Position numbers and translations under genes: made by a program. The notes below the pieces were generated by a model. That model saw only the letters and a program-made list of their open reading frames with translations. It searched no databases and had not been told where the DNA came from. From Asterochloris sp. CNOR1 (lineage: Eukaryota; Chlorophyta; Trebouxiophyceae; Trebouxiales; Trebouxiaceae), in the NCBI GenBank assembly GCA_963969365.1, contig OZ017751.1, positions 868,001 through 932,000 of the forward strand: 64,000 nucleotides of DNA. Reading direction: 5' to 3'. The first letter of the stretch is position 1. Each line of letters begins with the position of its first letter. This document shows positions 1 through 60,800 of the stretch, in pieces.

Positions 1-8
1 GGTTGAAG

Positions 9-300
9 GAGCCCACTGCAGATGAAGAGCAACAGCTCAACCATGATTGGGCCAGGTACAGGCAGGTGAAGATGGAGGGGATGCGCGTGACACCAGAGAG
101 CCCACTACAGACAGAGCACTGCAACTCTGGAGTACTGAATACATAGCAACACAGGTGCTGGTGGGGTGGAGGAGGTAGCGGCCACCCCACTGCGGAGCAC
201 AATGCAACTGCTCAAGCACAGGTGCTGATGAAGGCAGGGCGGGTGATGTGACCCCCACTGCAGGCAGAGTGCGCCAGCGTGAGTGTCAGCAACAGCTCCA
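9..300. repeat. Degenerate tandem repeat, about 85-bp period
   Basis: Four imperfect copies, near 9-45, 97-130, 180-222 and 250-300, share a core like CCCACTGCAG followed by an AGAGCA-like stretch and often CAACAGCTC. On the minus strand each core contains a CTGCAG that looks like a splice acceptor, so this is probably the intron after the last visible exon of the minus-strand gene at 715-2236. It resembles the exon-edge copies found elsewhere in the window, but the exon it would copy lies outside the window. Confidence 0.5.
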
Positions 301-714
301 GGGATGCATACATGAGCATGCAAGTGACATGCGTACCAGAACCTGTCTGCAGCAACGTTGCACGACCTCACTATCAGCAGGGGAGGCTGCCAGCGGGGGT
401 CGTGACTGAGACAGGGCGTGCTGCTGAGCATGCAGGGGTCTCAAGCTGTGCTAGCGGGGCAAGCGCGGCCCTCAGTAGGCCACACTGTGCCGACTCAGTC
501 CTAGCTCTAGGCACAGTGCATGCAGGGTTTGCATCAGGTCCTGCCTGCAGTGAACCCCTCAAAGCTGAGTCTCTATGTAATGCAGTGTGCTGAGGGGCAG
601 GTGGCAGCAAAGAATGGGCCGAATGTCTCATTCTGGAGGAAGGCAAAGCAGGGTCATTCATGCGGGGCAGGCCGCAGTGCTGTCCTGGTGTCCGTGGGCT
701 GCACCCTGACTCAC

Positions 715-3238: not shown

Positions 3239-4006
3239 AGAGCACTAGATCCAGCAAATTTCAACTCTTGGGCGTAGCTGCCAGATATTTGGCAGTGCAG
3301 ATCTGAGAGGAAATTTCTGGGAGTGAAACGCACCACGCACCACTTGATTGCCCTGGCTGAGTTTGGCAGATATCCGCTTGCTGTGCATTGGCAAAAACAA
3401 GTTGACAAGTTCAGGCTGCGCATTTGCAATGTCACTCGCACTGCATCTGACAACCCACTGTTCTGGGCGATGTTTGACGGCACACCCAATGTGGAAAACC
3501 TTAGGCTCCTGCGTACCCCTGCTGGATTTGCTGCCTTGCAGGCCCGCGGGAGGCCTGCCAACGCCCCCAGCACAGAGCCCCATGAGCAGCTCTTTGCGGA
3601 GAAGTCAGACAGCGCCGTGGCAGCGTACAAGCAGATGTGCGGCTTCACCGCAGCGTACACCATGCAACCTTACGTCCAGCAGATCAGAGGCTACAGACTG
3701 CGCAAATCAATGGCTCAGATCCGCTGCAGCAGCCACAGGCTGAGAGTTGAGACAGGCCGCTACACATCAGAAGCCAGACACGAGAGGACTTGCCGCCTCT
3801 GCACATCAGCAACTGCCATAGAAGACGAGCAGCACATCTTGCTGCACTGTCCCCAGCTTGATGACCTGCGCAACGCCCACAGCCACTTACTCCAGACGCC
3901 AGGACAGATTCTGACAGACCTCTTTGATGACCATCCCCCAATTTTGCTTGCTAAGTATGTGCGTGCAGCGCTGCTTATGCATCGATCAGTGCTGCTTTTG
4001 CCATGA
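3239..4006 (+). mobile_element. Non-LTR retrotransposon 3' remnant (RT C-terminus)
   Basis: The frame reads KFLGVKRTTHHLIALAEFGR and then a basic region, which is the usual segment after the reverse-transcriptase core in LINE-like elements. It ends with an RT-associated zinc-binding motif: CRLC near 3800, then EDEQHILLHC, i.e. C-x2-C ... H-x4-C. An in-frame TAG at 3275 interrupts the upstream continuation, and no palm domain or endonuclease can be seen to the left, so this is a 5'-truncated, dead copy. The frame from 3311 to the stop at 4006 is intact for about 230 codons, which is long for a decayed element. It ends about 220 bp before the transhydrogenase start codon and may contribute to that promoter. 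Confidence 0.75.
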
Positions 4007-4227
4007 TTATATGTATCTGTCAGTCCCATGCCCGTTCATTGTGGCCCCCGGACTTTACATCCATTCTATCTCTTTTTCTAGGAAGATTAGGTCACTATCC
4101 TTTGACCAGCTCTGGCAGCACTCATTGGCATACCATGCGTTTCCGAGAAGCGCTGGAATGACATGCGCATCTCTGCTCTGCAATATCAGCTTGTTGCATT
4201 CCCCCCCGCTTAGATCAGGCTGTCAGC

Positions 4228-7200
4228 ATGCTGAAGCTCCTGCTGCCAAGGCGCAGCAGGGACACAGCCTGGCGGCAGCTAGCCTCATGGCAGGCTGTAT
4301 CAGGGCTCAAGCCCAGCCTGCTGAGGCGCTTGACAACGAGCCCACAGCAGCCAATTCCCTATGGCGAGCTGGGCATTGGTGGGCCACCCTAGCCAGGATC
4401 TATATACGCATCTGCTGCTCGGAAACACCCATGGCAGATCCGTGACATTAGCTCTTTCCTTGCAGGTGTGCCAAAGGAAACATCTGATCTGGAGAAGCGT
4501 GTGGCACTAAGTCCTGCGTCAGTAGCTGTGCTCAGGAAAGCTGGGTTCAAAGCTGTGCTTGTGGAGGAAGGTGCTGGTCATGGAGCACAATTTACAGTGA
4601 GTGCGCCTCTCACTTGCAAGCTCAGCCCTCTGCTGTGGGCTTAAGCATACCTTGCATGGTGCATTGAAGTCCTGGGGTGAGGCAACATCTTGTTTGGAGG
4701 CCTCCGCCTGTCTGGGCTGCAAACACAACTTTCTGTTGTCCATGCTGCACGCTTGTCAGGATGATGGCTTTGCAGGATGCTGACTATGCAGCAGCAGGGG
4801 CCATCATTGCCAGCGCCCAGGCAGCTTTTGAGCAAGACGTCATTCTCAAAGTGCGCCCACCCACAGAGGGGCAGGAGAGCAACCTGTTCCAGAAGCACGC
4901 AAGGTGAAATAGCCTTTTCAACTGGGTTCTTTCCTGAGCCTCCAGTGCCATTGTGAGCAGCAACTGACTTTCCAGCAGCTGGGCATGTGGATCTCTCCAT
5001 GCAGCCTGGCACATAGCTGCATTGCTACCCTCTGACTCCAATGAATGCGTGCTGCAGGCTCATAAGCTACATCTACCCTGCACGCAACGAGGGCCTGCTG
5101 ACAGCCCTGCAGCACAAGCAGATGACTGTGGTTGGTGAGCTGCCTACACATCCCCAGATGTCCCGCTGCCAAACAAAATGCACATGCTTGCTGTGATGTG
5201 ACGATGGCGCACCTGCGTGCAGGCATGGATTGCATCCCCAGGACTCTGAGGTGCGTGACAGGCCCAGCATACTTGACTGTCTGCAAAGCAGACCTGTCTG
5301 ACCTGTGGCTGTTCACGTCTACAGCCGAGCACAGACCTTTGACTCCCTGAGCTCAATGGCAAACATTGCTGGCTACCGAGCAGTGGTGGAGGCTGCCAAT
5401 CAGTTTGGAAGGTTCTTTACGGGGCAGATCACTGCTGCTGGTGCGCCAAACACTTCTGCTCCCTACCCGCAAAAGCTGTGCTGGCAGGCCATGTGTTGGA
5501 GTGATCAAGCCCGATATGCCCAGTGATTCTTGTCACCCTCTGCCACAGTCTGCAACTTTGCCTCACCCCTATCTTAGCTTGCAGGGCGTGTGCCTCCAGC
5601 CAAGGTTCTGGTCATTGGTGGAGGAGTAGCCGGTCTGTCAGCCATCAGCACAGCCAAGAACATGGGAGCAGTGGTTCGAGTGTTTGATACAAGGCAGGCA
5701 GCCCATCACCAGCTGGAACCTGCCTTGCAGGGACTTGCAAGTTGCACATCATGCCAGCTTCAAACAGTGAAGTAGCTCAAGTGCTGTTGCTCAGTTGCCT
5801 GACAAGGCAGCAGACGAAACGGTGGGCTGCACCCCTGACTCAGGGAAACTTCACAAGCCCTCTCCCCTTGTGCAACTTGTGCAGGGCTGCGGTGGCGGAG
5901 CAGGCCAAGTCCCTGGGCGCAGAATTTTTGACTGTGCACCTGAAGGAGAGTGGAGAGGGTCAGGTTGGTCATGCTAGCAGACCAGATCAATCCTTATGTC
6001 TCCTAAAGTGAACATGTTCAAACCTTAACAAGAATGATGTTCTTTGCGTGCAACATGCAGGGAGGGTATGCCAAGGAGATGTCGCCAGAGTTCATTGCTG
6101 CAGAGGTGAGCTGCAGAATGCACAAAGCAGTCTGATCCATGTCCTACCACTGCTGCATATTGCGCTTACCAAAGTGGGCCGCTCGCACCAGACACCACCA
6201 ACAGGCCATGGCCTCCTTGAGCATACCCAAGTCAAGGATCCACCAGCTGCCTCCAACCCAATGGCTGCCTGCCCATAGATGGAGCTGCTCTGTCAGCAAG
6301 GCTGCAAGACAGTCATGCACACTCCTGCTGCCCACCGGCCTGTGCCTGTTGACAGAGCACCCCAGGCAGTCAGCCAGGTCAACAAGCTGAGCCGCGCACC
6401 TGAAATCTCGTCTGTGTGATCAGCAATGCAGGAAGATGGGCTCAGTGCAAGGCCCCTCCCTTCAGGCAAACCTTCATGCCCACAAGTTTGTCCTTTAAGT
6501 AGCGTCTCGAGCTTGGCTCACATGCCTGCTGGCTCCATTCCCCTCCCCTCCCCACTGCTGGCAGCAGGATGGAGCCAAAAACAGACCCACCCTGCATCCT
6601 GCCGGCAGGTGGACCTCTTCCAGCAGCATGCCGGGAACCTGGCTCTGGCCCAGGCCAGCTGAGGAACAGACTTGGCTCCAGCAGCAACCAAGCGGCAAAG
6701 GGCTTACTGCATCTTGCCCCGGCCCCTGCCTACAGATGGAGCTGTTCAGGCAGCAGGCCCGGGACGTTGACATTATCATCACGACCGCCCTCGTACCCGG
6801 CAAGAAGGCCCCTCTGCTCATTACGAAGGACATGGTGGAGCTCATGAAGCCAGGGTCTGTGCTGGTGGACCTGGCTGCTGAGACAGGGGGCAACGTGGAG
6901 GTCACACGGCCAAACGAGGTGGTTAATCACAAGGTGGGTCACGATGCAAGGCGCATTGTGTCTGCTTTGATGACAGTGGGCCAGGGCCAGAGGGCACTGC
7001 AGCATGTGTTTAGCTTGCGTATGGTCTGCTAAGTTTGAGAAGGAACGTGAGGTCACGCAGCCAACTGAGGTGGTCAAACACAAGACGGGGCGCGCCACAG
7101 GGCATGGGTGGCCTGCCTGAGGTGGCTGCTCGTGTCTCCAGAAGGCAGTAGACGTGCATCAAGTGGCTGTTGGTGGTTGACAGCTTGTGGGGGTCCAGGC

Positions 7201-10200
7201 TTGTGGGGTCCAGACAGCTGCAGCGGGAAGGGGCAGCAACATGTGCAGACCTTGTCAGTGAAGAACTGAGCGCTGATGTGTACATGCCTGGCTGCACAAT
7301 GGTTGATGCAACTCACAGCTGACATGACAGAGCGAAGAGTGGTAGCCGTCCCTTCTCCCTGGTGCTGGTCACCGGCGTGCAGCATTGGCATGCCGAGCAC
7401 CGCCTTGCTGCTGGGACCTCTCAGCACCCCCTGCAATGACAAAGAGCCAGCACACTACTTACCTGCTGCAGGGCTGCATCTGCATTGCCTGCCTGAATGT
7501 GTCTGGCTGCCAGTCCATAGGGCTGTGGTCCCGCTTTGTCAAGCCCCATGAGTGTGTGCCCAAGGCTGCATGTGGTGGGCCCCTTGGGGTCTAAGTGATG
7601 CAACAGAGAGCACTTGAATCCATGCTGACTGCCTGGGCAGGCTTGGTACTGCTGTAGGGCTGATGCTCCACACAGTTCGCACCCCTCCACAGCATTTGCG
7701 GTCTGGCTGCTGGCTCACGGTCAGCGCACACTGCAAAGCAGCTGCCAAGCCACTCGGCTTGTTGCATAGAGCATATCACTGCCAGAGGCCGCAGAAGCGC
7801 AACTGCATCAGCCACACAGAGCCCTTATCTGTGCTCCCTACCTGAGACCCATGTGTCTGCAGGCCCAGAGCTGCACAGAACCCAGAGCAAGCCACCTTGG
7901 TCTGCATGCTGCAGCCCGTTGCGTGACGTGTCTGGCTGCAGGGCTTACCTACTGCTCTGACGGGGTCAGTCACTGTCTCAGGCACTGGGGCATCAGTCGT
8001 TTGTTGATTGCCTGCAGGGGCGCATCTGCATCGGCTACACAGACCTGCCTTCCCGGCTGGCCACCCAGTCGAGCACCCTGTACAGCAACAACATCTCCAA
8101 GTTCCTGCTGTCCATGGGCCCCTTCACGGGGCACAAGGGCCACTTCTGCATTGACCCCAGGGACGATGCAGTCCAGGGGGCACTGATCCTGGAAGACGGC
8201 CAGATGAAGTGGCCTGCCCCGCAGCTCAAGGTGAGGCACCATTGTGTGCAAGAGTGCGTGAGTCGACTCCATGGGCTAGTTGTTGCTGTTTGCTGGTTGG
8301 CGTGTCACAGAGGCGAGGGGAACAAGGCAGGCCCCACCCAGCATGCAGTCAGCGGCCCCTGCATTGACCCCAAGGGAAGCTGTCGTTGGAGGGCCACTGG
8401 AGCTCAGGGACAGAGGGGTTCACCCTTTCATGGCTGAAGTGCAGCTGCCGGGCAGATCAAGAAAAGGCCAGCACTGCTGTACACCCTGGATCAGCATTCC
8501 TGCCTGTGAGGGACTTGGTCTCCCTGAGAGATGCATGGCCCTCACATTTGCTGGAAACTGAGCTTGCATGGAAGCTGTGTCCGCAGGCAGCGCTCCTTGC
8601 CTGTGGGCTTTGCATGCCTGGTAGACAGGGGCCTCGCTGTCTTTGCAGGCAGCTCGCCGCCATGTCTGAGATTATATCCTGTGGAGTGTTTCCGTCGGAC
8701 ACCCCAGAACGAAGGCAGCTTTTCGCTGGCTGGCGTCACCTCCAACCACCACGAGTCGTGCAGGATCCAGCTTCCAAGTCAGAAACTGCCAGCAAGCTGA
8801 CCCAGCCAGCGCTGTGTGCCCCATGTGCAGGCCCCCCCCCAGGCCCCTCAACCCCAGGCTCTCACAAAGGAGGAGGCAGGGCCAGTCGACTTGTATCGGC
8901 CCACCCTGCAGAACGCGCTGACCACCACTGCCGGCCTGGGTGGCATCATGGCCATGGGCATTGCCTCCCCTGGCGCAGCGTTCAGCTCCATGGTGGGCGC
9001 CCTGGCTGCCCTTGTCTGGTCTGGCTCTGCATGGGCAGTGCCTTGCTGTGCACAGCACTCAGCTCCACAGGGGTTGCAGGGGCTTGTGAGGAGGGCATAG
9101 TCAGCCTGTAGGCAGCAGCTCCCTGATGGACGCCCTGCCTTGTGTCAGCTGTGTTTGCTCTTCCTGACAAGGAATGCACTTGGCTAAGCTTTGAGCTCCA
9201 TGATGGTGCTCTGCGCTGGCATGGCTTGGCTTGCCTTGCCTGAGGGCAGCCAGACCTTGTTCATGTGCAGCCTGCCGAGCACGGGGTGTCAGCTCTTGTA
9301 TCCCCGCCTGAGGCTGACTGTGCAGATTTGGGCCTGCCCACCAGCATCAGAGCAGGCTGTCCAGCATCAGAGGGCGTCTGCTCCTCATGCTCAGCACTTG
9401 TCTCCATTGTTGCTGCTGCAGTCCAGGGTGGCAAGAGGGGCTTCTAGCCTGCTCAGCGTCCTGGTGAGGGCCGGACTGCTGCAGAGTCTGTTCCCAAAGC
9501 CCAGCAGGCCCAGGTGTCCTCATGCACCATCTGACTCTCTGCCACGCCTGGCTGCCACCTGTCCCCTGTGCTGCTGCCTGATCCCTTGACCAGACCCACA
9601 CTGCTGGTGCTCCTGCAGGTGACCAACTTTGGGCTGGCCAGCATCTGCGGGTACCAGACGGTCTGGGGCGTGACCCCGGCCCTGCACTCCCCCCTCATGA
9701 GCGTGACCAATGCCATCTCCGGCGTGACTGCTGTGGGAGGCATGCTGGTCATGGGCGGGGGCCTGCTCCCATCCACACCCTCCCAGGTGCGCTGCAGAAC
9801 GCTTGGCTGCACTGGCCCCAGCACCTGCAGGCAGCAGCTGCTCACCAGTGGCTCTGGGCCCAGGCTGACGAGGCTGCCTTGGGAGAGCAGGTGCGCGGGC
9901 GGCATGCCGCAGGCTGACAGTGCTGCTCAGATTGCTGGAGAGCTAGACGTTGTGGCTGATGCGCCGAATGGCCTGGCAGCAAGCAGAGATACATGCATAC
10001 AGGCCTGCCTCCCTGATGGCTGGGTTGCTGCACCCTCAGGCGCAGCGCTGTGAGAGTCTCACTGGCGGGCAGGCTGCCTTCTGCAGCCTTTCAGGGGCTC
10101 TGCACTGCACAGCAGATTGCCAGACCTGCAGCCAACAGACATATGGCAACTCCAGAGATGAGTTCAAGAGGCCGAGTAGCCAGCAAAGCAGTGCTTGGCC

Positions 10201-13200
10201 TGAGAGCACCAGCGAGAGTGAGCCTGTCTGGTCGGAGGCCCTGCTGTTGACAGCTACAAAGTCTCAAGAGGTGTCTTTGCCTGGCGACTGTGCAGGTCCT
10301 GGCAGCCACTGCCGTCCTTGCCTCAGCCGTGAACATTGGCGGCGGCTTCACCGTCACCCAGCGCATGCTCAACATGTTCAGGCGCCCGACAGATCCCAAA
10401 GAGTATAACTACCTGTACGCTGTGCCTGGGGCAGCCCTGGTGGGCGCCTATGCTGCTGGTTACATGGCAGGTGAGCTGCAGACTGTACTGCTGATCTGAG
10501 ACCCACAGGTCAACCCCTTGGACAAGCCAGCAGCAGCTTGACAGCGCGTTGCGAGCTGCAGCCCACACTGCTTGAGCACAGAGGCTTCATCTCATTGGGG
10601 CCTGGGTGCAGGCCCATGTCTGCCTTTACCAAACTCTTGGATGGAGCGACGCCTGCATCCCTGAGCTGCAGATTTTATAACACCAGGCGTTTTCAGCTTG
10701 AAGCTGCACATCAGAAGGGCATCCAGCCTCTGCTGCAGGCCTGCCTGAGATGACCAGCATGGCCTACCTGGCCTCCTCAGGCCTGTGCATTGGCGCCATT
10801 GGCTGCCTGGCCAACCAGAAGACGGCCCGGACAGGCAATGCCCTGGGGCTCATGGGCGTGGCTGGCGGCATTGCTGCCACGCTGGGGGCTGTCGGGGGAG
10901 ATGCACCCTTGTATGGACAGATCGTGGGTGAGCTCTTGTGCATGCAGCATCTTTGCAGGCAAGTTTGCAGGATGGAGTGCATGTCTGCGTCAGGCTGCTC
11001 GCGCACATGCGCTGTCAACTGCTGATGTCGGAAACCGGATCCACCAGAGCGTCACGCAGAGCGTCACGACACCGATGCGGCAGGGGCAGCAGCACCGGGC
11101 AGCGTGCTTTGTGCAGGTGCAGCAGTCACCATTCCTTTCTGGGGCTGCACATGGCCCTCAGGGTTTTCCTGCTCCTGATGGCTGCAGGCGCTCTGGCATC
11201 TGGCGGCGCTCTGGGGGCCTACCTGGCCAAGCGCATGGCCATCACAGACCTGCCCCAGATGGTGGCCGGCTTCCACTCCCTCGTAGGTCAGCGCTGCTCG
11301 TCCCTGCCAGGGAGACCTGTTCAGCACCCAGCAGGCAGCAGCGCATGCAGGCAGTGCACTTGTCCTGGCAAGCAGCAGCCCATGTCACGTCCTTCAGGAG
11401 TGCTGGGGGCTGGCTGGTGGGCCTGTAGCCACAACCTGCTGCATGCTTTGCTGTGCACTGTCTGCCGCCACATTGCTGCATGGGGGCCATGATGTACGTT
11501 CACCTCCGTCCCCGCTCACTGCATGCCCTGCTGTGTGTTTGGGGTCCCAGCCCCCTTTTCCTTCACTCAGCCAATTATATACAGTGCTGCACAGTGTTGA
11601 CATCTGGTGCAGGCCTGGCAGCTGTGGCCACCTCTGTGGCCAGCTACATGGCCCACCCTGCAGCCCTGGCAGACCCTGTGCACCTTACCTCCACCTTCCT
11701 CGGCACCTTTATCGGCGCAGTCACTCTCACAGGTAGCTTTGCTCACGTGGGCATCATCGTCACCCTGCAGCTATGCCGTGCAGTTTTCTGACGTCTGCCT
11801 GTAGAGGTGTTTGGTCATGGATCCCACTGGGAAGCAGCCTGCATGGCATGGAGTGCTGTGCTTCTGCTGTGCTGGAGCAGACCATGGTTCTGCTGCTAGG
11901 GCTGCCTGGTGTGCCAACCAGTCAGCAGCAGACTGTGGCACGCTGAAGGCCAACCACCTGCTGCTGCAGGTTCAGCTGTGGCCTTTGGCAAGCTGCACAG
12001 CGTGCTCGCCTCCAAGCCGCTGGCCCTGCCCGGCAGGAACTTGATCAACCTGGGACTGGCTGCGGGCAATGTGGCAGCTGCAGGGGTGTTCATGACAACA
12101 GGCAGCCCTGCTGCGGGGCTGGCAGCCCTGGGAGCCACCACCGGCCTGGGCGGGGCCCTGGGCGCACACATGACAGCCTCCATTGGAGGTGAGAACAGAC
12201 CATTGACCAGCTGCTCCCAGCTGAAGGCAGAGCAGAAAAGAGAATGCTCAGCTTATCTGCATACAGCGCTGCACACCGGTGCCATCTGGGCCGACGTGTG
12301 CCTGGCATGCAGCCCCGAAACAGCGCTGCCCCATGCAGCCCAGGGTAGGAAGCGCGCTTGGCCCTGCCCCACAGCTGTGCTGCCTGACCCTGCTGGCTCC
12401 CCTGCAGGCGCTGACATGCCGGTGGTGATCACTTTGCTCAACTCCTACTCGGGGTATGCGCTGTGCGCCGAGGGCTTCATGCTGGGCAACGACATGCTGA
12501 CCACAGTGGGGGCACTCATTGGGTCCTCGGGGGCCATCCTGTCCTACATCATGTGCAAGGTGGGGCACTGCACCGGCCAGCAGGCTTCTCCTGCGGCACA
12601 GCGGCCAGCATCTGCTGTGCTGCTTGCACATCAACTCGGAGATCCCCTGTTACCACCTTGCAGAGGACTGCTCATGTGGCTTCTGGATTTCAAACAGCAC
12701 AGGCCGAGCAGGCCTGCACATGGCTTGCATGAACCCCTCAAAGGGCCTTCTCAGCAACACCTTGTCACAGGGCCTGCCCAGTAGGGACAAGGGGTCTCTC
12801 AAAGCCGCCGCCTGCCAAGCGCTCACAGAAGTGCCTTGCTCCTGTCAGCTCCCCTGTGCAAATCTGCCCAGCGCTCACAGGAGCGCCTGGCGCCTGCCAG
12901 CTCCCCTGCTCAGCCCTGCCCCCTGGCAGACAGCCCACAACACGTGCTTGCTCCCTCCACCTGCTGCCCATGGAGGTCCTGTCCGGCCCTGTCCCAGCCC
13001 GCACCTGTCACTGCTGCAGGCAATGAATCGGTCCCTGGCCAACGTCATTCTCGGTGGCTACAGCACGACAGTGACTGCCCAGGTCAAGGGGGAGGCCCTA
13101 CAGCACCAGGAGGTGGATGTGGCGGGGGCAGTGGATGCTCTCACCAATGCGCGCAGCATCATCATCGTGAGCCACAGAATTAGTTAGGTGCTTCATCGTC

Positions 13201-14630: not shown

Positions 14631-14780
14631 TGTCAGGTCCTCAGAAGAATGCCATATCTGCCAATTTTGCCTTTTGCTTCTCGAGGATCCAACCCAATTT
14701 TGAAAACATGCTGCATTGTCTTGCGCTGATGGCTTTGCTGCGTGTCCCCTTTTTGCCGCCTGCGCACCCCACTTGACCGT

Positions 14781-19772: not shown

Positions 19773-19872
19773 GTGGCAATCTTGTGTTTGCCCCATCTTG
19801 TGCCGAGCTTTGTGGCTCAGTGGTGGCAATCTTGTGTTTGCCCCATCTTGTGCCGAGCTTTGTGGCTCAGTG
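19773..19872. repeat. Perfect 50-bp tandem duplication
   Basis: The 50 bases from 19773 to 19822 are repeated without change at 19823-19872, starting GTGGCAATCTTGTG. Identity is complete, so the event is recent or the region is an assembly duplication. Confidence 0.97.
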
Positions 19873-20613
19873 GACTTGAAGACAGTTGAGTTGAGCTAGA
19901 TCTGAACACTGTCATATGGAACTTGCGGCCATGCTGACTTGCAAGCCTCCTGCAGGCCATGTCCCCCAGAAGCGATTTGAAAAAGGAGGTACAGCGCTGA
20001 GATCACCTGAATCCCTGCCGGCCTGCTCAAGCTGTGACAACAGCAGCAATGCAGCTAATTTTTAAGTGCTGGGGTTTCTGCCATTTGCAATGAAGGTACC
20101 TGACTTCCCTTGCCTTGTTGGCATCGTGAAATCCTGATCTTGACTTCAATCCAATCTTTGGAGGCAACATAAATTGACAGATGAAATCGAACAGAACCAG
20201 TATCAAATCAGGGAGTCTGGCATGTTGGGCTGGGCTGAACTTGTACTAGTTCTCATGTGGGAGCTTTGCGAGGGTTGGCCAGCAAAAGAGCCTGCGCGAC
20301 AGCAAGGCTAACTCAGGCAGCAGCACCAAGCCCTCGCAGGATTTCTTCTGAGTAGATCTGCATGCGTGCAACATCAAGCGCAAGGCCCCATGGCATCGCC
20401 AGTCCTGCTTGTCAATGTGCAACAGGGTAAGAGGTCTGTGCCTGAGTTCACCTCAATGGAGGCCATGATAAAGCACATACAAGGTGCATGTACCACAGGG
20501 AATCGCAAAGCCTTGTAGTTGTGCCTCACTCACAACCAGTGAGCTCTGCTCAGGTCACACCGTCATTGGCTGCTGTCTCTATGCTGCACAAAGCATAAGG
20601 CCACGGGTTGCCT

Positions 20614-20784
20614 GCCCATCCTACTCCTCATAGCAGGGAGCTATGCAAAGGGGCTGTTGCCGTGGCACATGGGATGCCCCCACCTCGGCTGCCTGTTGTC
20701 ACTTGCAGGCAGTCTGCACCAAGTACAGAAAGGGGAGGCACCCACCTGTCCTGCTCCTGGAAGCAGTGAGCTCCGCAAAGGGGT
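20614..20784 (-). repeat. Copy of SCYL2 last-exon end beyond its stop
   Basis: The stretch at 20614-20654 resembles 20740-20784, the coding end of SCYL2; both contain AGCAGnGAGCT...GCAAAGGGG. The copy lies downstream of the stop codon on the gene's strand. Confidence 0.5.
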
Positions 20785-48495: not shown

Positions 48496-48879
48496 CCTTC
48501 TTGACTGTGAAAGTGTTTACAGCAAGCTGCAATGGTTCTCCACCAAACTTGAAATGACTGAAAGCAACCAATTGTTGCCTGGTCAAAATAATGACATCTC
48601 CTGAGGTGAGAAACAAAATGTTGCATAGCTTAGAGACCAAAAAATGCCAGAAGTGCTCAGGGTTCGAATGAAAGCTCTACAATGGACTTGGCACTGCTGG
48701 CGCTCATTGTCTGTGACTGCAGGGATTTTGTCAAGTGACAAAAGCAACTGGGTGCCTTCTGAAGAGAGTGCTCTCGCCAATGGGGCCTTCATCATCAGGA
48801 TCTGACTTGAGGTTGCACTGTGACTTTCTTGCCAAATGGGCCCCAAGTGCTGGTGAAAGAGTTCATGTCAAGCGGTGTG
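48496..48879. other. Convergent intergenic spacer
   Basis: Holds both 3' ends. A TGTAA on the minus strand at 48519-48523, the usual chlorophyte polyadenylation signal, could serve the SAC gene. No gene seen. Confidence 0.45.
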
Positions 48880-51800
48880 CTATAGACACTCCTGAGCAAG
48901 AGCCTGTATCTGCTTCTCGGCCAGGGCTGCCACATCGACGTACTCTGCTGCAGGCTTGCGCCAAGTGGTCTGAGTTCTGTCAGGCATCAGAGGATTGCCT
49001 GTGGCAGGTCCGCACAGGCGAATGTAGTCTTCCAGCACGTCCCACAGCTGGATGCTGGTGAGCTGAGACCGATTGGAGGACAGGAACCTGCAGGCACACA
49101 CATGCTGCTGGTGTCGCTGCAGTGATCAAGCAGTGCGTCTCACAGCTTGTGAAGCATGAAGAGTTGCAGACATGCACAGGCAAAGCTGGTGAGATTGCTG
49201 CCCACAAACAGCAGCAGCGAGTGCAAGGCTGATCGCTTACACAGGCCTGCAAGCAGCTGCCGCCTGCACACTGGGGAAAAGTTTTGGACTGAAGCGTGAC
49301 CTGTCCCCAGATGCATAGCCATGTGCCCCTGATCAGGCAACAGCAAGGGGGACCCTTGTCCTGGAGTCTGCACAACAAAAGGATGGCAGACCGCATGGCA
49401 TTCTGCTCTGCGTGCAGGTTGGCAGCTCTGTGAACACCGTCCAAGTCACTTCTGGTGCTGGGCCAACACCCCCCTGCCCATGATGTGACGGCAGCAGCCC
49501 AAAAGGCCTTTCTTGGCGGTTGTGCAGATCACCTCTGGTAGACAGCCCGTGCCTCCTGCTGCATGAGCGCCAGATCACAACTGACCTCACAGTATGTTGA
49601 TCACAACTCTGCAAGGCAATTGGCGCGACACAGCTCACCTCTGGTAGCCGGTCTGTTCATGCTCCCCCCAGGACTAGATCAGGGTCAAAACCGTCACAGC
49701 CTGCAACTTTCCTTTCTGGCGGTCATGCAGCCTGCCCTCTACCCCCCATCACCAGATCAAAGCTTGAGAGTCGATGCCTGCATGGCAGCCACCAGGCGCC
49801 ACGCAGCTCGTACCTGGTAATCAGCCCACGTTTCCTGCTGCACAAGGACTGGACCAGAGCTGCAGTTTCTGCATTCAGGTCACACTCTGACAGGGCACTC
49901 GACGCCAGGCGTTTCACCTCTGGTAGACATTGCGCGCCTCCTGCTCCCCGCAGAGCCACTCCTGCAGCAGGTCCACGTCCATGCTGGCCAGCTGGCTTCG
50001 CAGCTCTGCATCCCCTACCGTGCTCAACGGCACGACGGAGCTGCCCCTTGAAGGCAGTGCAATATATTCCGCGGCTGTAGACCGGAGCAGACTGTCCCCA
50101 TCGTCACCTGCATGCAGCACAAGCACATCGCACTTGCCTCCTGCAAATGGTTTGTTGCAGCCCAGGACACTTGACCACTGACATTTGCACGTGCCTGGTC
50201 AGACGCATTTCAGCATTGCCTCAGCCTCAGTGCAGCTGATTCCGGCCACTCAGCAGCCCCTGACGCTGACCTGCTACAACAGCCTCAGCTGCAGGAGAGA
50301 GGTTGCAATGTGTACCTGAAGAGCTGGATTGGGACATCTTGCTGTGCTGCATCAGCAGCTGCTGCTGCGCACCCCCAGAGGGGCTGCCTCCCTCTGCAAG
50401 CTCTGTGCTCCCCTCATTGGCTGCTGACAGGAGTTCAGCAGGAGAGGGTGGGCTGGAAGGGCCAGAGAAGGAACGCTGCGGTGGACCCCACCAGGTCTGC
50501 AGACTGGAAGGGATGCCAAGCGACGCCTGCATCAGACACAAGTCAACCGTCTTCAGTGCAAGGCTTTCCTTAGTGGGTATCAGGGGCACTGCTCTTGTAG
50601 TGCGGCCTCTATGACAATATGACCGGCCCCAGTACGAGCTCTGCCACCTGAGCTGGAGCCTGAGCGGTGCTCCACGCACGCAGCTTTGGTACATTGCCTG
50701 ATGTGTGAGTGGTGATGCACCTGCTGCTGCATGCGCTGATGGTCTGCAGCAGGGAAACCCGCAAAACCTCACAGCATCAGGCGCCCTGCCCAAAGAGGCT
50801 GTGCAACCAATTGCCATGTAAAGTGCAGGGCTGAAGGACTCGTGACTCTCAAGGCCCCTCTCCGACCAAGTATGGAGAAACCCTGAACTCCAGGCCAAAG
50901 GAGCGCTTGCCTGCACTGCAGAGTTGCTGCCTCCCCGCTGAAGGAACGCTGCCAGGTCCGGCACCTGCCCCACGGGCCGGCGCCCGTGAGCGAAGCTGCC
51001 ACCTGACTCTGTGGGCAGCACCACCTCACTCCTGGACCCTGCAGACAGTGATTCACCCCTGGCAGAGGGGCCATACAACAGCTGTGGGTAATCACTTCCC
51101 TGCCCGATGTCGCTCAGCCAGTATGCATGCAGGGCTGCACACACGTCATGGGTTGATGATCACAAGACAGGATCTCAAGAGCATGCCCAAAATGGAATGC
51201 CTATCCTCAGGGTGGTTCACATGCTGAGGGACCAGCACTTGCTCTCCAGCCTGATGGTCGGCATGCCCCCAAGAAGCCAGCAGGTAAGGCCCTACGAAGA
51301 CACCAGAATGACATGCACTGATCAAACTGGAACAGGGACAAACCTCAAACACAGCTTGTGGGCGCCCTGCCCTCTCCTGCGGCTGCAGTGGACCTGAGCG
51401 CATCAAGGACACCCAAACAGAGGAGACTCACTTGTCAGCCTGGTTGACGGGGAGGCGTTAAGTGGACCAGGCTTGGCTCCTGCGTGCCCCTCTCGCGAGT
51501 GTGCTGCTGCAGAGGAACTCCAGCGCATCAAGGGCAGCCTGGGCAGCGCCATGCGCCTCTGCAGCGGCCGCGCCGCGCCGCTCAAGCGCACGCTGAAGCT
51601 CTGCCGCCAACGCCGCAGCGGGTGCTCCTGCGCTGCAGGCAGGAGGGACAACCTGTCAGACTTCCTCAAGGTGCTGCTGTTCAGCAGGCAATGTTTTGAA
51701 GGTGCCGTAAATATGTGGGGGCAGGACCAGTGTTCTGAGGGTACATGTGATCTTGGGCGCAGCATGGACACTACGGTGTGCTGCTGATGAATTCCATCCA

Positions 51801-54800
51801 GAAGCAACTGTGCAAGCTGAGAGCCCCAGCACGCTGCAGCATCAGCAGCATTGTGCCTCAGCCTGAGAGCTACAGCTCCAGACAGCGACACAGTGTTGCT
51901 GTATGCAGCTGTAGCCTGGTGTTTGAGCGCTGTTGGGCAGGTGCAACAGTGTTGGCAGCCCCAGCGAAAGCACAAGCAATTTCCCAGCTCAAGGGCCAAA
52001 TGGCCACATGAGCTTTGGAGCCGTCTCAGCCAGCTGTGGAGACAAGTCAGCCCTGGCAGCCTCATCGACACCCACTGAGCCCAAGAGCCTGCATAAGCTG
52101 TTAAGATCCCTTAGCTGGCTGTGGGCAGCCCCCCTCAAGTCAACACACAGTAAGCCCGAGAGCCTGCAGAAGCTTTCAACATGCCTGATTGCGCTGCACG
52201 GGGCGGTGGCCGGCGCATGGGCCTCAGACCCTGCACCAGCTTTGAGCACATCTCACCTGGCTGTGCAGGGGCCCCTGTACTGGTGGCCCTAGCAAATGCA
52301 GGGTAGCTCAGCGGCGGTGATGCCATGCCAGCGGGCTCTGCACCGTCCGCATGCTGCTGCGCCACCTCCGCCATCTGAGCATCCAGGGACAGGCCGCGCG
52401 GCAGCATGCCAGCTGCCATTCTCTGCAGCCAGGGCCATGTAGCAGGCTCAGAGACAGGCAGCAGCAGTACAAACACATGGCTGAGCAGATGCAGTCCTGT
52501 GCAGGAGTGGATAGCAGGGCATCACGATACACCACAAACAGTGCTGGCATTCCCAGACGCTTGCAGAGATTGGAGAACATGCTGCAGACACAGCAGCGTG
52601 CAGATCCCTGATGCAACTGATATTGTTGCCTCTCAGCTGGGCGTTCAAGCGCCATCTCAAGGCGCACGCAAGCAGCTGTCTGCACCAGAGGCACAAAGGC
52701 AGCACACCTGCAGCTGCGGTGCGGTGGCTGCCCCATTGGGTGGCGTTGTCGCCCCCACAGTCAAGCTGGAAGGCCAAGGGGATGCTGGCAAACCAGGCGT
52801 GTCTGCCCTCAGACGGGGAGCAGAGAAAGTGCGCGACAGCATGCTGGAGGGGGGCCCCAGCGGCGACCTGCCGTTCCCGCCAAGCAGGCTGCTGGTCCTG
52901 TGCAGCAGGCACAGGAGAAGCATATTGTGCATGGCGGAGTGCACAGCTCAATGGCATGCTGGAGGGAGGCAATACCGGGACTCCAGCAGGCAGGCTGCCA
53001 GTCCCTGGACAGCAGGGCAAGCCGGCAAGCTAACAGACAGCATGCCAGACCATTTATGCGGCAGCATGGTCGAGGCTGCCAGCCCCACTCAACTACCTAC
53101 CCGCAGGATGCTGGGTGCTGGACAGCAGCACGAGGCTGAGGCACGCTGGTTCTCTGCATGGGTACATGACCCGCGTGTTTGAAGCAGGTGCTAGCTTCAG
53201 AGCTGCTGACATTTGCACACCAGCACAGGCATTCAATCCTGCACATTGGTCACAGTCGACAGCTTCACACGATGCAGCATCGCCGCCGCAAGGGCACATA
53301 ATCTGGCAAGTAGTAAGCGGCCCGCGCTGTACCTGGCAAGGTCTGAGCTGCCTGCAAAGGGCGTGGTGGCGGCCTCAGTGAAAGGGTGCCAGTCTGAACC
53401 CGAGGAGCGCTGCAGGCTGGCCACATCTGAGTCTGTCTCAGCCAGGCTACTCAGCTGTCCCCCTGAGGGCACATGCAGCAGGCCTGACTGATCGGGAGCT
53501 GCAGCCAGGCACACTGAGAGTCAGGTTGGCCCTGTGTGCAGAAGCGTCAGATGCTGCCCCACATGGGCAGCAGGCACCCTCAAAGGCAGCACCAAGCAGA
53601 ATGGCCCCCCAGCACAATGCTGCTGTCTGCCAGCAAGCTGCTGGTCTGGCTAGTTTGAAGGACAGTTAGAACGGTCAAGCTGCTATCAACAGATCCCTGA
53701 ACCTGAAGAAGGCATGCTCAGCTGCTGCCCATCTGTAACAGCAGGGCCAACGTCACAACATCCCAGTGCAACCTCTCAACAAAACCTGAGCAAGGCAGCT
53801 CCCTAGCTCCCCCAACCACCCAGCAGAGCCAGGCGACAGGTCAGCTCAAAGGGCTGGTGTGCAGTGACTCGTTGTCATCCCGTTGTCAGTGTTTGTGCCG
53901 AAGCGCTTTGTTTCTTTCAAGCCCGCCCAGCCATGCAGCAGCAGCTGACGTCACCCAGGGAAGGGAGGGGCAGAAGTCCTTCGAAAGTACTCACTTGCTG
54001 CCCCACTGTCGGTGTCAGTGCTCATGCGCCTCACGCGCACATTGCCGCCCTGCGGTTCCACAGCTGCCACAGTCTCTGCCTGCAGCCGCATGCCCAGAGG
54101 GAAGGCCAGCCACTGGGGCAGTGAGTGCTTGTGGGCGTGCTGCCCCGGGTGCAGGCTGACATGGTGAGGCTTCTTAGACTGCCTCCCAATCATCTTGTCA
54201 AAGGACTCTAGCTTGGGCGGCCTCACAGGAGTGCTCCGGGAGCACAGCAGGCCCTTGTTCAGCACAGTGCCTGGCTGGGAGCTGGAACTGCTGGCAGCTG
54301 GCGCAGCACCACCTTGAGGGGCAGCACTGTAGGCTGCTGTTGCAGCGTCGGCCTGCGGCGCAGCACTGTGACCGTCGGCAGCCGGTGCAGAGTCAGGCAT
54401 GGTGGCTGTGTCCTGGTGTGGGCTGTCTGGCTCGCTGCTGCCTCCTGCCTGCTCCACGCCCAGCAGCAGAGCCCCTTGCTGCTCCAGCAGGCCACCCTCT
54501 GAGCCCAGGGCCTCCCCCACCTCCCCTTTGCAGCTGGGTGTGCCTAGCTGCTGCACCCGCTCAGCAGCTGTGTGCTTGGGCGGCGACACAGCCACTGGGC
54601 CAGTGGCCGGAGCAGCACTGTGGCCCTGAGTGGGCAGAGCAGTAGTGTCTGGGCCCCCTTGAGCTGCAGGCACAGCCCTGCCACCTTGTGCATCATCATC
54701 AGCAGCAGCAGCAGCAGGCGTGCTGCCCTGTTGTGAGTCAGCAGCAGCCTGGGGTGTCATCTGCTGCTGCTGCTGCGGCTGCTCCGCAGGTTGCAGCTGC

Positions 54801-57800
54801 TCAGCAGCCGGGCTGCCCGCATCTCCCTGAGGTTGCTGGGGCTTCTCAGCAGGGCAGGAAGGTGCCTGCTGGACGCCAGCAGATGAGTCTGCTGCCGTCT
54901 GCTGCTGCCGCTGCGCCTCAGCTTTGCCAGACTGAGGCGGCAGGCATTGCGTTGGGGGCGTACTCTGCTCCGCTGACTTGCCCTGCAGCGCCTGCTGCCC
55001 ATCTGCCGCGTCGCGCTGTGCCTGCTGGACCTGACAGTCCACAGCTGCAGCCTGAGCAGTGGCCCTAAACCCATCAGAACTCTTGCTGTCTGGCTCCATA
55101 AACTCTTCTGCCTCCAGCTGTGGCAGCAGCACTGTTGTCTGCTGGCTATCACCTGGTGCAGATCCTTGCGCTGCGGGGCTCTGCTTCTCAGCAGGCTGCT
55201 CGTTGGCTGTACCAGAGGGGGCAGGGTGGTAGAGGTGGTGGCCTGCAAACCAGCCAGAAGGTATATTAGGCCAGTGCTGCTTCTGTGCACCCTGAGCACG
55301 GGCGCAGGCTGCGAGACTTAATGCCACATATCTTGTCCTGGGCTGGCTACAGATCCATGAAGATGCACTGCCTGAATGCAATTTTGGCAGCCATTTAAAG
55401 GTTGTAAGAATCTGGACACTGGTGACTATGTCAGACATGGTATGGGGTAGGGGAACCACCCCAGAGCAGCATGGACACTGTCAGCTGTGCCTGCACCTGG
55501 CACGCAGATGCAGGCAGTGCAGTCGCGCAGGTGCAGGAGCATCTACTGTACAGCTCCCAAAGGGCTGGTTGTCTAGGGGTGGGCCCACATTGCATGCATC
55601 TGTACCATCTCATCTCGGCACACAAAAAACGCTGCTGAACTGGTGCTCCCCAGGGCGGTGCAGTCATCTGTGTGCAGGTGGCAGTCATCGTCCAGCCCAT
55701 AGAGGGACCTACACTAGAGTTGGCTGCCCAGAGGTGGGCACAGGGTTGCATGCCAGCATCATCTGAGGCCAAGTACACTTGCAGATGCAGTGCTCCATGA
55801 GGCTAAGGGGGCAGTGGGTGTCACCTGTGTGCAAATAGTAGTCACTATCTAGCTCCCATAGGGCAGGCTGCCCAGGGGTGGGCACAAAATTGCCCAGGAA
55901 GAGGTTGATGGCGTCCTGCTTGTCAGCATCAGTGTAGGCGTTGGAGTCTGCAGGGGGCAGTGATCAGCTGGTCACTGCACCACAGCGCAGGTCTGCCTCT
56001 TACCGTCCTATGCAGGCAAGCACGTCTGTATGAAAGGGAGAAGGGGCTATCAGCCACAGCTGAACAGGGCCGCATTGCACCCATCAATGTCCAGCAAGGC
56101 ATGTCTGCAGCTGGCTACAGAGCGGGGTCAGCTAGATCTCACTGCCATGCGGCCTGCAGGGAGTGGGATGGGCACGCTGACCGGGACACAGGCTAAGGGC
56201 TGGGGACATGCAACCTGCCGAAAAGAAACTAAGCGTACGATTCAGGGTTTAGTACCGGACAGTTTGAGTGCAGGAGTAGAGCCTGGAGCTGCCCAACATG
56301 GGCAATGCCAGCGCACGACTGTCAAGCAAGGTCACTCACAAAAGCGCCTAATTGACGTCAGGAGCTCCCGAGACTGTGTGGCTGGCTCCCAGTCCCCACG
56401 TTGGCGCTGGAAGAAGGTGCTGTGCGCCTCAGAGCCACCATACTGCAGCGCAGGCAGGCACTTGGTCACGCTGGAGAAGATGCAGTAACACATCATTGAG
56501 GTCTCCTTAGCGCATCTGTGCGCAGGGGAGCAGTGTGTTGCAGTACATGGTGTTACCTCCACTGGGGACTTGACCTCCTCAGTTGTGGGCATGGCTTCAC
56601 AAACTGCAGCTCTAGGATGCAGGCTGACATGCACAAATTTCACAGTCCAGCTAAAGCCTGTGGGGTCGTCACTCTAGCATATGGGTCCTTCTGCTGTTAG
56701 ACCATCATGGTCCAACGGCTGGTGCTTAGCCCCCTGCTGCGCCAATGCCTTCCTCAAATCAGCTGAGAATCCACATGCCCCTTGCAAGCTGTTGCCACAT
56801 ACTTGAAGAAGCATCCAAGGTCCATTGCGCCAGATACTTTAACAGCTGTGGGCTACTGCCAGCTCTTCTGAGCCCACCTGCCGCGCCAGAACATTCCCCA
56901 TGACCTCGTACAGGTCCATCAGCTGCCTCGCCAAGCTGCTGCGCGCATCGAGCTCTGGCCCCTCAGCCAGCCCCAAAGCGTGCAGCTGCCGCCCCAGGGC
57001 CGCCAGGCCAAAGGCAAACTGGGCCACATTGGTGCGGTCCAGGCAGTCGATGCAGTTGGTGCGCAGCACACCATGCTGCAGCTGGACTGCGTGATCCTGC
57101 AAAAATGTGGGCAGGCTCATATGTGGGCCAGGCACAGTGTGGTGGAGGCCACAGAGACGTCGCCAGGCGCTTGGTGCAGCTGAACTGCAAGCTCTTGTCA
57201 AGAAGCCAAGGGGCAGATGCAGCAGTGGTAGGCACTGCCTACCTCTCAGAGTGCAGTGGGCGCTCAATTGTCCTGATACTGTCACAGTGTCTTGTGTTGT
57301 GTTTTATTTTGTTTTGTTTTTCGAACAAGCCCAGGCATCTTGGCTGAACAGCAGAATTTGTGTGCCCTGCTAGCCCAGCATGCATGTGTGGAAAGCCAAC
57401 AATTGCTGTCTGCTCCAGCTGCAGCTCTGCAGAGGCCCAAGCTCTGCTGACCATGATCAGTACTTGCGGGAACCGACCTTTGCACGTCCTTCATGGCAGG
57501 GCCATTCTGCTAATGCACTCATCCAGATCAGTCTCGCCCTGCTCATGCCTAACACCTGTTCTCACCTCCCCCAGCTGGGACCCTCCTGGCACCACAAAAA
57601 TGCCAATGCCCTTGAGGGCCACCTGAATTACTGGCGCTATGTCAGCTAGTATGTGGTTGCCCTGCTGCTTGGCGTGGTAGTTGAAGTCCCAAGGGATGTA
57701 TGAGATGTGCTCCTTGGGACGCCTCTGCAGGCAGCCGTGCAGGCATGTACAGGCAGGCAACAGCAGCTGCCTAGACATGTTGGGAAGCATTACTCTTCAG

Positions 57801-60800
57801 AACACCCCTGCAGGCAGCCCTGCAGGCATCTGCAGAGAAGGGCAGCTGCTGACTGGGTGGCAGACGTTCTGTTGTGCATCCCCACCACAGCAGGACTTGA
57901 CAGCCCAGACAGGTGCATTTAATCCCCCCCAACCCGCACTTAGAAGCTTGTGGAGCCGCTGGAAGCATGTCAGGCTGTGGTGCCTTGAGATTTAGCTGCA
58001 GCGAGCCCTGCAGCTTGGGCAGATGCACTAGAGCCCCCTGAACCCTGATCAGAACGCTTGTGCAGTGCAGCGCACATTTGGCTTTGGATGGGAAACGCCC
58101 TGCTTGGTGCAGAAAGCCTGCCAGGTAACAAACCAATCTGCAGCTCAAGACTGTCACCACCAGGCAGTCCTCACCTGCTGGTTTATGTAGCTGATGGCAG
58201 TGTTAAATTCCTTGCGCAGAATGGTCTCCCTTGGCCGCTTCTCGGCTGACTTCACCAAGCTCAGAACCACAGTTGGGTGTCCATACCTGTCGCCCAGGTC
58301 CTGCAAAACAAATGGCATCGGAAGATGAGCATTGGCCAGGGTTTGCACGAGGCTGCCTAACCTGAGACAACATGCCTGCTCTCCCTCACTTTGCACCCAA
58401 AAGCAAAGCGCAGACAGGGTACAAGGCAGGTATAACTGTCTGCTCAGAACGTTCAAGCAGCACTCTATGGTCAACAGGTGATGCCCATTCTCTGCATCTC
58501 AGGAATTGCTGTCCAGTGCGTTCATTAGGGCATCCACCTGCCAGGGGCTGCGCATCACCCCTCTGCTGTGAAAGCTTAAGCGACACTACCTGCTAGCTGC
58601 ACCTCCTCATCAACTGCGAAGAACCAGTGCTTGTGTTCAGCAGGCCTCACCTCAAAGTGCAGCTGCGTGGCTCGGTACAGAGGGTCAAAGCGCTGCAGCA
58701 GGATGTCAGGCTTCAGCTTGGTTGTCCCCTGCTGCAGCCAGTACAAGGGGATGCTGCCCCGCACCTGCACCAGGGGCAGCCAAGTCAGCCACAACTTGAT
58801 GCTCTGAGCTTAGCTGTCGCAGTAGAGTAAGAGGTGCTGCTGCCCCAGGCAGGTACTACACCTGCATGTCGGAGCCAGTGTGACACCAGCCTGGACATCA
58901 GGGAACAACAGGGGTGTGACCCCAGCAGTGAAGCACAGCTGCATTTCGAGAAGCATGAAGTTTCCTGCCTGCACAGTGGACCACAGTTTGAACACGCCAG
59001 CCTCCCAGAGGGGCAGTGTGCACAGTGCCAAAGCCACATCGAAGCTTGCATATATGGCACACAACAATAGCAGAGGCAGTTTTTGCCCCGGTACATCACT
59101 GCGCGCACAGCGTGGATCCCAGCCCTGGAGCTTGCCTGCACAGCTGAGGACAGCAGCGGCATGCCGGTGCGCCTGTCCTGCCCCGCATGCAGGATCTGCT
59201 CCGTCTCCACGTCATTGGCAACTTGGCCCTTGTCATTCACACCTCGCTTGCGATACCTGCATTGCGCAGGGGAATGTCCTACGCTGAGGCCCTGCTGCAG
59301 CTTCCTGCAAGCACACTTTGCAGGTACCCTGCCATGCGTGAGGTCTCAGAGGCACCGATGCATGCATCTGGCTCGAGAGGCTGCTGCTCTGCTCATGGAA
59401 AGCTGCCTGCTGTAGTGGCACTCTGTGCTCTGTTGCCTTTGCAGACTGAGTATGATCAGCAAGCTGCTGCAGAGCAAGGTGCACCAGTGCTTCAAGGCTG
59501 TTTCTAACAAGCTGCAGTTCACAGTAGGCATGGTGCCAGCAGAGAGCTTACAAATGCACGCAGAGGTGGCCACACAGCACCTGTGTGCCCATAAGCGAGC
59601 AGCTAGCTGACCTAGTGCCAGCAAAGTGCTTGGAGCGCCGACTGACGACAGTCAGCGTGAGCGTCTGTCCCAGCAGCGACAGCGTGCGTTGTTGCCAGAA
59701 GCCGTGAATCAGCGGGATGGCCCAGCGACCATTGCTCAGGGCTTTGCGCAGCGGCCTGCATGAGATGTTATATGCTGCAAGTGTGGTGCTGCAGCTGGCA
59801 AGTTGAGAGGGGCCCCACAGTGATGCAGGGCTGCTGATGTTATGTGCAGCACCGCGTCAGACTGAGTCCCCATTGATCGTAGTGCCACAGAATTGACGCC
59901 GCTCCCCAGCTTGAGGCCATGCATCAGCACCTTGTCAGACTGAGTCTTGCCAAGTAGACAGTGCCACCACTAGGGCCATGCTGCATGCATAAAGCCATGG
60001 GTTGTCCATTGTTGGCCAGGCAGGGCGTGCCAGACATTGCTGCAGCAGCAGGCCGGGCAGCTAGGTAGGTCACAGCACCCATGCCCGACCTGCTCAGGTA
60101 CTCGTTCCAGACAAATCTGCTCTCAAAGCAGTCGTGGGGCTGCTCAGCAGTCAGGCTGGCCTGCAGCGTCTGCCCCAGATTGTAGGTGTAGCTGAAGTAA
60201 AAGTCCTTGTTCAGTTCCACTCCGCTCAGCAGGATCCTGCGATATCGCTTCTCAGCAGCGCAGTCCAGCATCTGCAGGGCAGGCAGGATGGCTTAGCACT
60301 CTGTGCACGCAAGATGCAAGAGAAAGAGATTGCTGCGATACCGCTCCTCTGTAGCGCAGTGTAGCATCTTAGGGCAAGCGGAAATCAGCACATTGTGCAT
60401 GCAAGGCGCCAGGGGTAGAGGTGGCTGCGGAGCTGTTTCTCAGCAGCACAGTACAGGCCCTATAGAAGCAATCACTGAGCTCCACTGTGTCGCTTCTCAG
60501 CCGCGCAGTAAAGGCATTACAGGGCAGCAGCGAGGGGTTTCCAGGTACTGTCTCATTGTGCAAGCACGCAGTCCAGCATCTGGGTACAGGCTGTACTGTT
60601 CAGGCATCGTGCAGTGTCTTGTCGCTTGCAGCAGCAGTGTTGAGCAAGAAAGGCAGCGTAAAGCACAATGCTTTGGGCTCAAGAAAGCAACTGGCCTGCA
60701 ACCGGTAAGCTGCCGCCCACCTTGCCGTTTGACAGCAAAGGCACCAGGGCCGTCTCTGAGATGCCATACACCTTTTGCCCTGCATCACGCAGGAGCGCGC

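Follow-up and report, generated by a model that had tools for sequence, protein, structure and literature searches.

Copies of exon edges in Asterochloris introns as probable remnants of short tandem duplications

In the genome of the green alga Asterochloris sp. CNOR1, we analyzed a 64,000-nt stretch of DNA (contig OZ017751.1, positions 868,001–932,000, hereafter the window) whose introns carry degenerate copies of the edges of neighboring exons. These copies probably stem from numerous short tandem duplications, arranged head to tail and since decayed, that hit non-coding and exon-edge DNA alike, the extra edge being left behind as dead intron. A scan for direct repeats found 31 pairs in the window at lags of 40–700 bp (17 at exon edges, 10 non-coding, 3 exon-interior, and 1 exon–exon), which overlap merging reduced to 26 independent events (14 edge, 10 non-coding, and 2 interior), in line with an original prediction, made from the sequence of the window, of local degenerate repeats at about twenty places. 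The 17 edge pairs sit at 14 exon edges, with the second copy outside predicted exons; at least nine clear exon-edge copies with their splice site had been foreseen. With retrained gene models (see below), 12 edge pairs (9 independent) were counted on 120 edges of the window.

Beyond the window, we sampled 26 loci of 10 kb from the same 56.4-Mb genome (21 contigs, of which 18 measure ~2–4.5 Mb each), giving a total of 324 kb from one genome. A match to the RuBisCO large subunit on contig C21 fits a photosynthetic eukaryote. The first 244 kb consist of the window and 18 loci (L002–L019) placed at 0.4 Mb on 18 contigs, and the later sample of eight mid-chromosome loci (L020–L027, 80 kb) placed at 1.5–2.0 Mb. 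For exon models we wrote an unsupervised gene finder and trained it on these first 244 kb, where it converged on donor CAG/GTGAG and acceptor CTGCAG/G. Many of its exons were short (median 51 bp), and genes were merged; exons of ≥30 bp with a coding score ≥6 were used (307 in the 244 kb). Family matches identified predicted proteins as an NAD(P) transhydrogenase (NNT), a kinase-like gene, an S49 peptidase, a SAC/FIG4-type phosphatase, and a SulP-type transporter. For each half of the loci, the gene finder was also retrained on the opposite half, with the trained model as its starting point, so that the folds are not fully independent of that model; 473 of 770 edges were kept and 602 were called. 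Direct pairs were collected with a lag scan, written because BLAST self-comparison had overlooked a perfect 50-bp tandem at 19773 that Tandem Repeats Finder detected. Lags of 40–700 bp were counted, overlaps were merged for independent events, and pairs in which the three commonest dinucleotides made up ≥0.6 of the sequence were discarded.

The repeats are not due to chance. Up to a spacing of 700 bp, the lag scan of the 324 kb returned 194 direct pairs (merged) against 8 inverted ones (unmerged, hairpins included), while BLAST at ≥35 bits within 600 bp returned 102 direct and 0 inverted pairs in the 244 kb, a filter having removed hairpins and palindromes from this comparison. At the same BLAST threshold and distance, one Markov shuffle of the 244 kb gave 0 pairs, and one shuffle gave 0 pairs at lags <800 bp. 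In the lag scan, the excess peaks at lags of 50–160 bp, fades by ~600 bp, and is gone beyond; the drop-off below a spacing of 40–50 bp is, by our reasoning, a detection limit at about 80% identity. At least one pair was found in 24 of the 26 sampled loci, which supports the suggestion of a genome-wide mode of local duplication that crosses junctions. Overall, 139 independent events were distinguished in the 324 kb, including 57 at exon edges, 64 non-coding, and 8 exon–exon clusters; with retrained models, the edge and non-coding counts were 44 and 81. Just 2 of 194 pairs with ≥35 aligned bases reached ≥93% identity, and edge copies are about 70–92% identical to their originals, and therefore not simple assembly duplicates. 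Tandem Repeats Finder reported only 7 arrays in the window, with periods of 15–66 bp and 1.9–2.5 copies, so that most pairs must be too decayed or too spaced for that tool; these copy numbers also led us to reject minisatellite arrays (≥3 tandem copies) as a candidate.

The association with exon edges was evaluated through 60-mers made of exon bases only, each compared with its own 600-bp outer flank. Exons <60 bp or scoring <10, edges without a splice dinucleotide, and flanks that were too short or mostly exonic were left out. In the 244 kb, 28 of 447 edges scored ≥36, where 0.03 would be expected judging by flanks belonging to other exons; the reverse strand gave 0, and mid-exon 60-mers reached this score in 3 of 214 cases. 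In the top 1% ranked 58 of the 447, against 4.5 expected, so that by these two counts 6–13% of edges have a copy. The original prediction had named edge matches no commoner than in controls as the outcome that would count against it, and the observed excess is the opposite. Retrained models gave 18 of 332 edges scoring ≥36 (0.033 expected) and 44 in the top 1% (2.7 expected). Both sides of exons are affected, as predicted, with 41 acceptor and 34 donor edge pairs in the first 244 kb. For the 53 independent edge events of this sample, the splice dinucleotide lies within the alignment in 45 and is intact in 36 of those 45, and in the aligned examples the junction itself is duplicated. Two or more pairs were found at 11 of the 66 edges with copies.

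Within the window, edge copies lie 73–457 bp from their originals. Eight of the 14 edges (at 6736, 6933, 8018, 8992, 26293, 41218, 57724, and 60271) belong to exons backed by homology to 6qti (transhydrogenase), to 7k1w (FIG4), to a kinase domain, or to a transporter domain, and fall in four genes, the number of unrelated genes originally named; at the remaining six, the exon is predicted by the gene model alone. The plus-strand NNT gene provides four edges of exons aligned to 6qti_A: the acceptor edge of exon 6736–6933 (6725–6755, copied at 6268–6298, spacing 457 bp, 84% identity), the donor edge of the same exon (6892–6952, copied at 7044–7103, spacing 151 bp, 77%, GT lost in the copy), the acceptor edge of exon 8018–8230 (8014–8043, copied at 7791–7820, spacing 223 bp, 83%, AG kept), and the donor edge of exon 8831–8992 (8953–8990, copied at 9030–9067, spacing 77 bp, 76%).

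All other edges are on the minus strand. In the FIG4/SAC-type phosphatase gene, whose exons align to 7k1w_F, the acceptor edge of exon 57566–57724 (57710–57770) recurs at 57793–57849 (spacing 83 bp, 79%, AG kept), and that of exon 60090–60271 (60237–60360) is followed by a three-copy series at 60333–60452, 60490–60527, and 60563–60582 (spacings 96, 245, and 308 bp). A donor edge with kinase-domain support, that of exon 26293–26501 (26283–26343), has its copy at 26053–26113 (spacing 230 bp, 77%, GT kept), and the acceptor edge of exon 23910–24130 in the kinase-like gene, supported by the gene model only (24076–24148), has one at 24240–24309 (spacing 164 bp, 83%, AG kept). Two acceptor edges belong to the SulP-type transporter, namely that of exon 41077–41218, supported by Pfam (41166–41252, copied at 41265–41349, spacing 99 bp, 73%, AG kept), and that of exon 43776–43931, an edge upstream of the Pfam match (43899–43960, copied at 43984–44043, spacing 85 bp, 77%, AG kept). 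This gene, at 34285–44085 on the minus strand, also has a STAS domain, along with a cyclic-nucleotide-binding match so weak that it falls below its cut-off (23.3 against 27.5 bits).

The other edges supported by the gene model only are the donor edge of predicted exon 20746–20937 (20749–20783, copied at 20619–20653, spacing 130 bp, 80%), the acceptor edge of 21849–21925 (21895–21967, copied at 22059–22131, spacing 164 bp, 70%, and at 21991–22023, spacing 73 bp, 79%), the donor edge of 49918–50005 (49914–49945, copied at 49529–49560, spacing 385 bp, 88%, GT kept), and the acceptor edge of 62872–62906 (62874–62949, copied at 62980–63054, spacing 106 bp, 80%, AG kept). The last pair lies beyond position 60592, where the predicted range had ended; the feature is present in that range as proposed, and its end was set too early. 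Similarly, the proposed spacings of 28 to ~470 bp were borne out between 73 and 457 bp, while the shortest refers to a 28-bp array of 2.5 copies at 44811–44878, 20 bp from predicted exon 44898–45055, which is no more than a candidate donor-edge array.

The copies are dead and without coding constraint, because mismatches on the exon side are spread almost evenly over the codon positions (0.205/0.174/0.234 in 65 edge or interior copies), 25 of the 65 contain indels, and 8 contain in-frame stops. The nearly flat codon-position profile and the indels also rule out tandem coding exon duplication for edge and interior copies. Synonymous changes are slightly in excess (114 of the 309 codons with a single change, against an expected fraction of 0.248), as fits changes that arose in the exon. 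The median length is 453 bp for introns carrying an edge copy (n = 19) and 316 bp for those without one (n = 153), a comparison that is partly circular because a copy requires room, and that supports the proposal that introns lengthen by local duplication. Splice sites had also been suggested to shift. No shift was seen at junctions 6933/8018, 57724, and 60271, those testable against homologues, because the predicted proteins are collinear with the solved homologues (6qti and 7k1w), without insertion. Two copy-bearing introns searched against the whole 56.4-Mb genome each matched itself alone, and an introner or transposon origin was rejected given the absence of dispersed copies for these two.

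Head-to-tail tandem duplication is indicated by the direct orientation, the short range, and, for about 40% of events, a unit close to the spacing: the alignment covers ≥0.7 of the spacing in 33% of the 57 edge events and 48% of the 64 non-coding ones. Among shorter pairs in the 244 kb, further flank homology (p ≤ 0.05) was detected in 16 of 67, against 3.4 expected. We propose that short tandem duplications, with spacings mostly of 50–160 bp and a tail to about 600 bp, would strike introns, intergenic DNA, and exon edges. Where one of them crosses an exon edge, that edge and its splice site would be present twice; splicing would presumably retain the site that preserves the protein, and the other copy would turn intronic and mutate freely, the intron growing by one unit and the protein staying unchanged. 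Edge pairs would then stay recognizable longer than intron–intron pairs because their exon-side original is protected by selection, which may account for the exon-edge share. Going by the literature, the duplications most likely originated when staggered breaks were filled in and their ends joined, as in mammals.

The relationship between age and detectability was examined with neutral simulations. The observed ratio of edge to non-coding events is 0.89 (57 to 64, 324 kb), with 14–17% of pairs at ≥90% identity. A model with uniform ages from zero fails on both counts: ages of 0–0.6 gave a ratio of 0.41–0.43 with 43–46% of pairs at ≥90% identity. Ages of 0.10–0.25 gave 13–18% of such pairs and a ratio that is too low (0.48), ages of 0.15–0.30 a ratio of 0.76–0.81 with 10–12%, ages of 0.20–0.40 a ratio of 1.42–1.45 with 7–13%, and ages of 0.30–0.50 a ratio that is far too high (3.8–5.9) with 0–18%. 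In these simulations, old duplications alone bracket the edge share as well as the spectrum of identities, such that edge targeting is unneeded under the model. They also support the view that detectable events would be mostly old and the recent rate lower. The special place of exon edges may then be largely a matter of visibility, because wholly non-coding pairs are at least as many and because the old-age simulation brackets the edge share.

Several observations in this and the following two paragraphs weigh against such a history of indiscriminate duplication and dead copies. Some of them favor exon edges as preferred targets of duplication, through splicing, transcription, or chromatin at the junction, which we consider unlikely. 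In the 244 kb, 75 of 164 pairs lie at edges, against 33.6 expected under random placement, and the 28 of 447 edge 60-mers scoring ≥36 compare with 4 of 424 intronic 60-mers taken 100–160 bp further out (440-bp flank). Simulated ages from zero leave edges two- to threefold over-represented (1.17 observed vs. 0.41–0.53; for long alignments, 0.64 vs. 0.34–0.44), and the age windows that remove this excess were picked by hand. Retrained models cut the edge share to 44 vs. 81 and weaken the need for old ages, the simulation itself using the original models; the old-age case therefore rests mainly on the identity spectrum. On the 156 edges of the eight later loci there were 4 independent edge events, compared with 53 on the 614 edges of the first 244 kb, at a similar density of non-coding pairs (17 in 80 kb and 47 in 244 kb), and retrained models gave 4 events on 172 edges in these loci, 31 on 310 in the first 18 loci, and 9 on 120 in the window. 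The simulation does not account for this low edge count in the mid-chromosome loci, for which a chromosome-position effect and chance are both possible. Against targeting stand the old-age simulation, which brackets the ratio without it, and the second sample, with 4 edge and 17 non-coding events and 1 of 86 edges vs. 0 of 85 intronic 60-mers. In addition, detectable duplicates in the 244 kb cover 8.4% of the 25 exon bases next to the edge and 1.8% of exon bases lying 75–150 bp from it, the edge value being just slightly over the 3–7% of non-coding bins.

The shape of the pairs raises the question of whether DNA from nearby was instead copied or captured at breaks, through templated insertion or strand annealing, much as in the repair-mediated proximal duplications of vertebrates, an explanation we regard as improbable. 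About two-thirds of edge events align over <0.7 of the spacing, as would result from copying a small fragment over a gap, and 30 of 36 short edge events have no significant flank homology, so that "tandem" there is inferred from orientation and distance. Capture is less likely than tandem duplication because inverted copies are nearly absent (8 vs. 194 direct), though capture can yield the opposite orientation, as in an example in PMC2671141; the unit close to the spacing in about 40% of pairs and the homology that 16 of the 67 short pairs show in their flanks also speak against it.

Copies might instead be retained as functional decoy or alternative splice sites, mainly acceptors, which seems quite improbable to us. 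Of 31 acceptor copies in the 324 kb, 26 retain the AG, whereas 99 of 157 control AGs from these alignments do (p = 0.018), and identity reaches 0.89–0.93 at acceptor positions −5 to −1, with 0.65–0.88 in three-base bins farther out. A dead copy would not explain this excess, which we treat as suggestive only. Donor copies show no significant excess (GT kept in 12 of 18, against 43 of 82 in the control, p = 0.20), the second sample adds just 3 acceptor sites, of which 2 are kept, local alignments tend to finish on matches, several tests were made, and the codon positions are free of constraint.

Intron gain by tandem genomic duplication, reportedly described by Gao and Lynch in 2009 and by Hellsten in 2011, had been mentioned alongside these repeats as a known proposal, and is very improbable here. 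It is a documented route (PMC3443670, PMC2891723), with tandem duplication and splice signals inside genes as in the alga. In the algal case, existing introns grow and none is created. Of the 172 introns flanked by confident exons, 0 show the intron-gain signature, with copies spaced by the intron length and the intron start copying the start of the next exon, and the two introns searched had no further match in the genome. Intron sliding (PMC2891723) is related in that duplicated splice sites could in principle move a junction, although the few testable algal junctions are unshifted. Chance, splice-consensus similarity, or assembly artifact is next to negligible as an explanation, given the near-zero counts in shuffles, on the reverse strand, and in the flanks of other exons, the identity of about 70–92%, and the use of exon-only bases, which together with the other-exon control rules out splice-consensus similarity.

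Returning to tandem duplication as the preferred explanation, its extent can be estimated under the simulation with ages of 0.15–0.30, in which about 40–42% of events are detected at edges and 17% in non-coding DNA. If that simulation holds, the 57 and 64 events would stand for roughly 140 and 380 duplications, which would amount to some 50–65 kb of the 324 kb assuming 100–125 bp each. A more far-reaching account, which we hold only tentatively, is that of a strong and mostly ended wave of 50–600-bp tandem duplications that would make up on the order of one-fifth of non-coding DNA (under the same simulation) and would have lengthened introns, with exon edges as its fossil recorders, from which such waves might be counted and dated within one genome, and acceptor copies that may be decoys.

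Small tandem duplications at breaks have reportedly been described in rice by Vaughn and Bennetzen in 2014. In mammalian cells, they arise from staggered double-strand breaks with 3′ overhangs through fill-in and end joining, and they are the commonest short insertions (<100 bp) in the human genome (PMC8355091). The algal pairs are likewise direct, local, and made of short units, and are probably head-to-tail; unlike the mammalian ones as described there, they are mostly decayed, spaced mostly 50–160 bp and up to about 600 bp, and in many cases located at exon edges. The proximal duplications of vertebrates are also local (up to 619 bp) and include duplicated splice sites and partial exons, as do the algal copies, and their intensity falls during primate evolution (PMC2671141). 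They were found as insertions into transposons, pairs within 50 bp being removed as tandem, with a mean distance of ~1.2 kb and one in opposite orientation; by different search methods, 4 of 824 human donors were partial exon/intron sequence, against 57 of 139 independent events at edges in the alga (PMC2671141).

Each single step thus appears known elsewhere, and what looks new is the density, known here from one genome, and the use of exon edges as fossil recorders; among the titles and abstract openings listed from the open-licence literature, none gave an earlier description of exon-edge copies as a genome-wide intron feature. The findings bear on the source of intron length in compact genomes with unusually long introns. 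For relatives of Chlamydomonas, PMC8226300 states that introns far longer than the minimum have no known advantage and that intron length there probably has an ancient driver. Dead exon-edge copies offer a tool in this respect, in that the conserved exon serves as a reference revealing old local duplications after intron–intron copies have faded. Rates and timing of intron growth could thereby be measured from one genome and compared across species.

Other repeats of the window were found away from exon edges. The perfect 50-bp tandem duplication at 19773–19873, outside predicted exons and found by both Tandem Repeats Finder and the lag scan, represents a recent event of this type. Also outside predicted exons are duplications at 12812–12921 (spacing 52 bp, 81%), 28119–28248 (66 bp, 84%), and 39033–39154 (62 bp, 77%), and a tandem series at 37858–38048 (57 bp, 70%). 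Within exons, 23946–23978 of exon 23910–24130 matches 23632–23665 (spacing 314 bp, 88%), the pair spanning 23632–23978, and a stretch inside exon 55825–55947 has copies at 55545–55593 (spacing 299 bp) and 55715–55749 (spacing 144 bp), the set spanning 55545–55893. Elsewhere in the sample, larger tandem arrays lie over predicted exons in loci L006 (6674–7350) and L017 (3–1236), with spacings of 265 bp at 94% identity and of 96 bp, a multiple of three and possibly a repeated protein segment. The window also contains an imperfect 47-bp palindrome (51869–51915, 85%) and three weaker ones at 16690, 36665, and 55954. Finally, a 242-aa open frame at 3278–4006 on the plus strand matches Pfam zf-RVT at 13.8 bits, below the cut-off of 27.5, and presumably resembles the zinc-binding C-terminus of reverse transcriptases from non-LTR retrotransposons.

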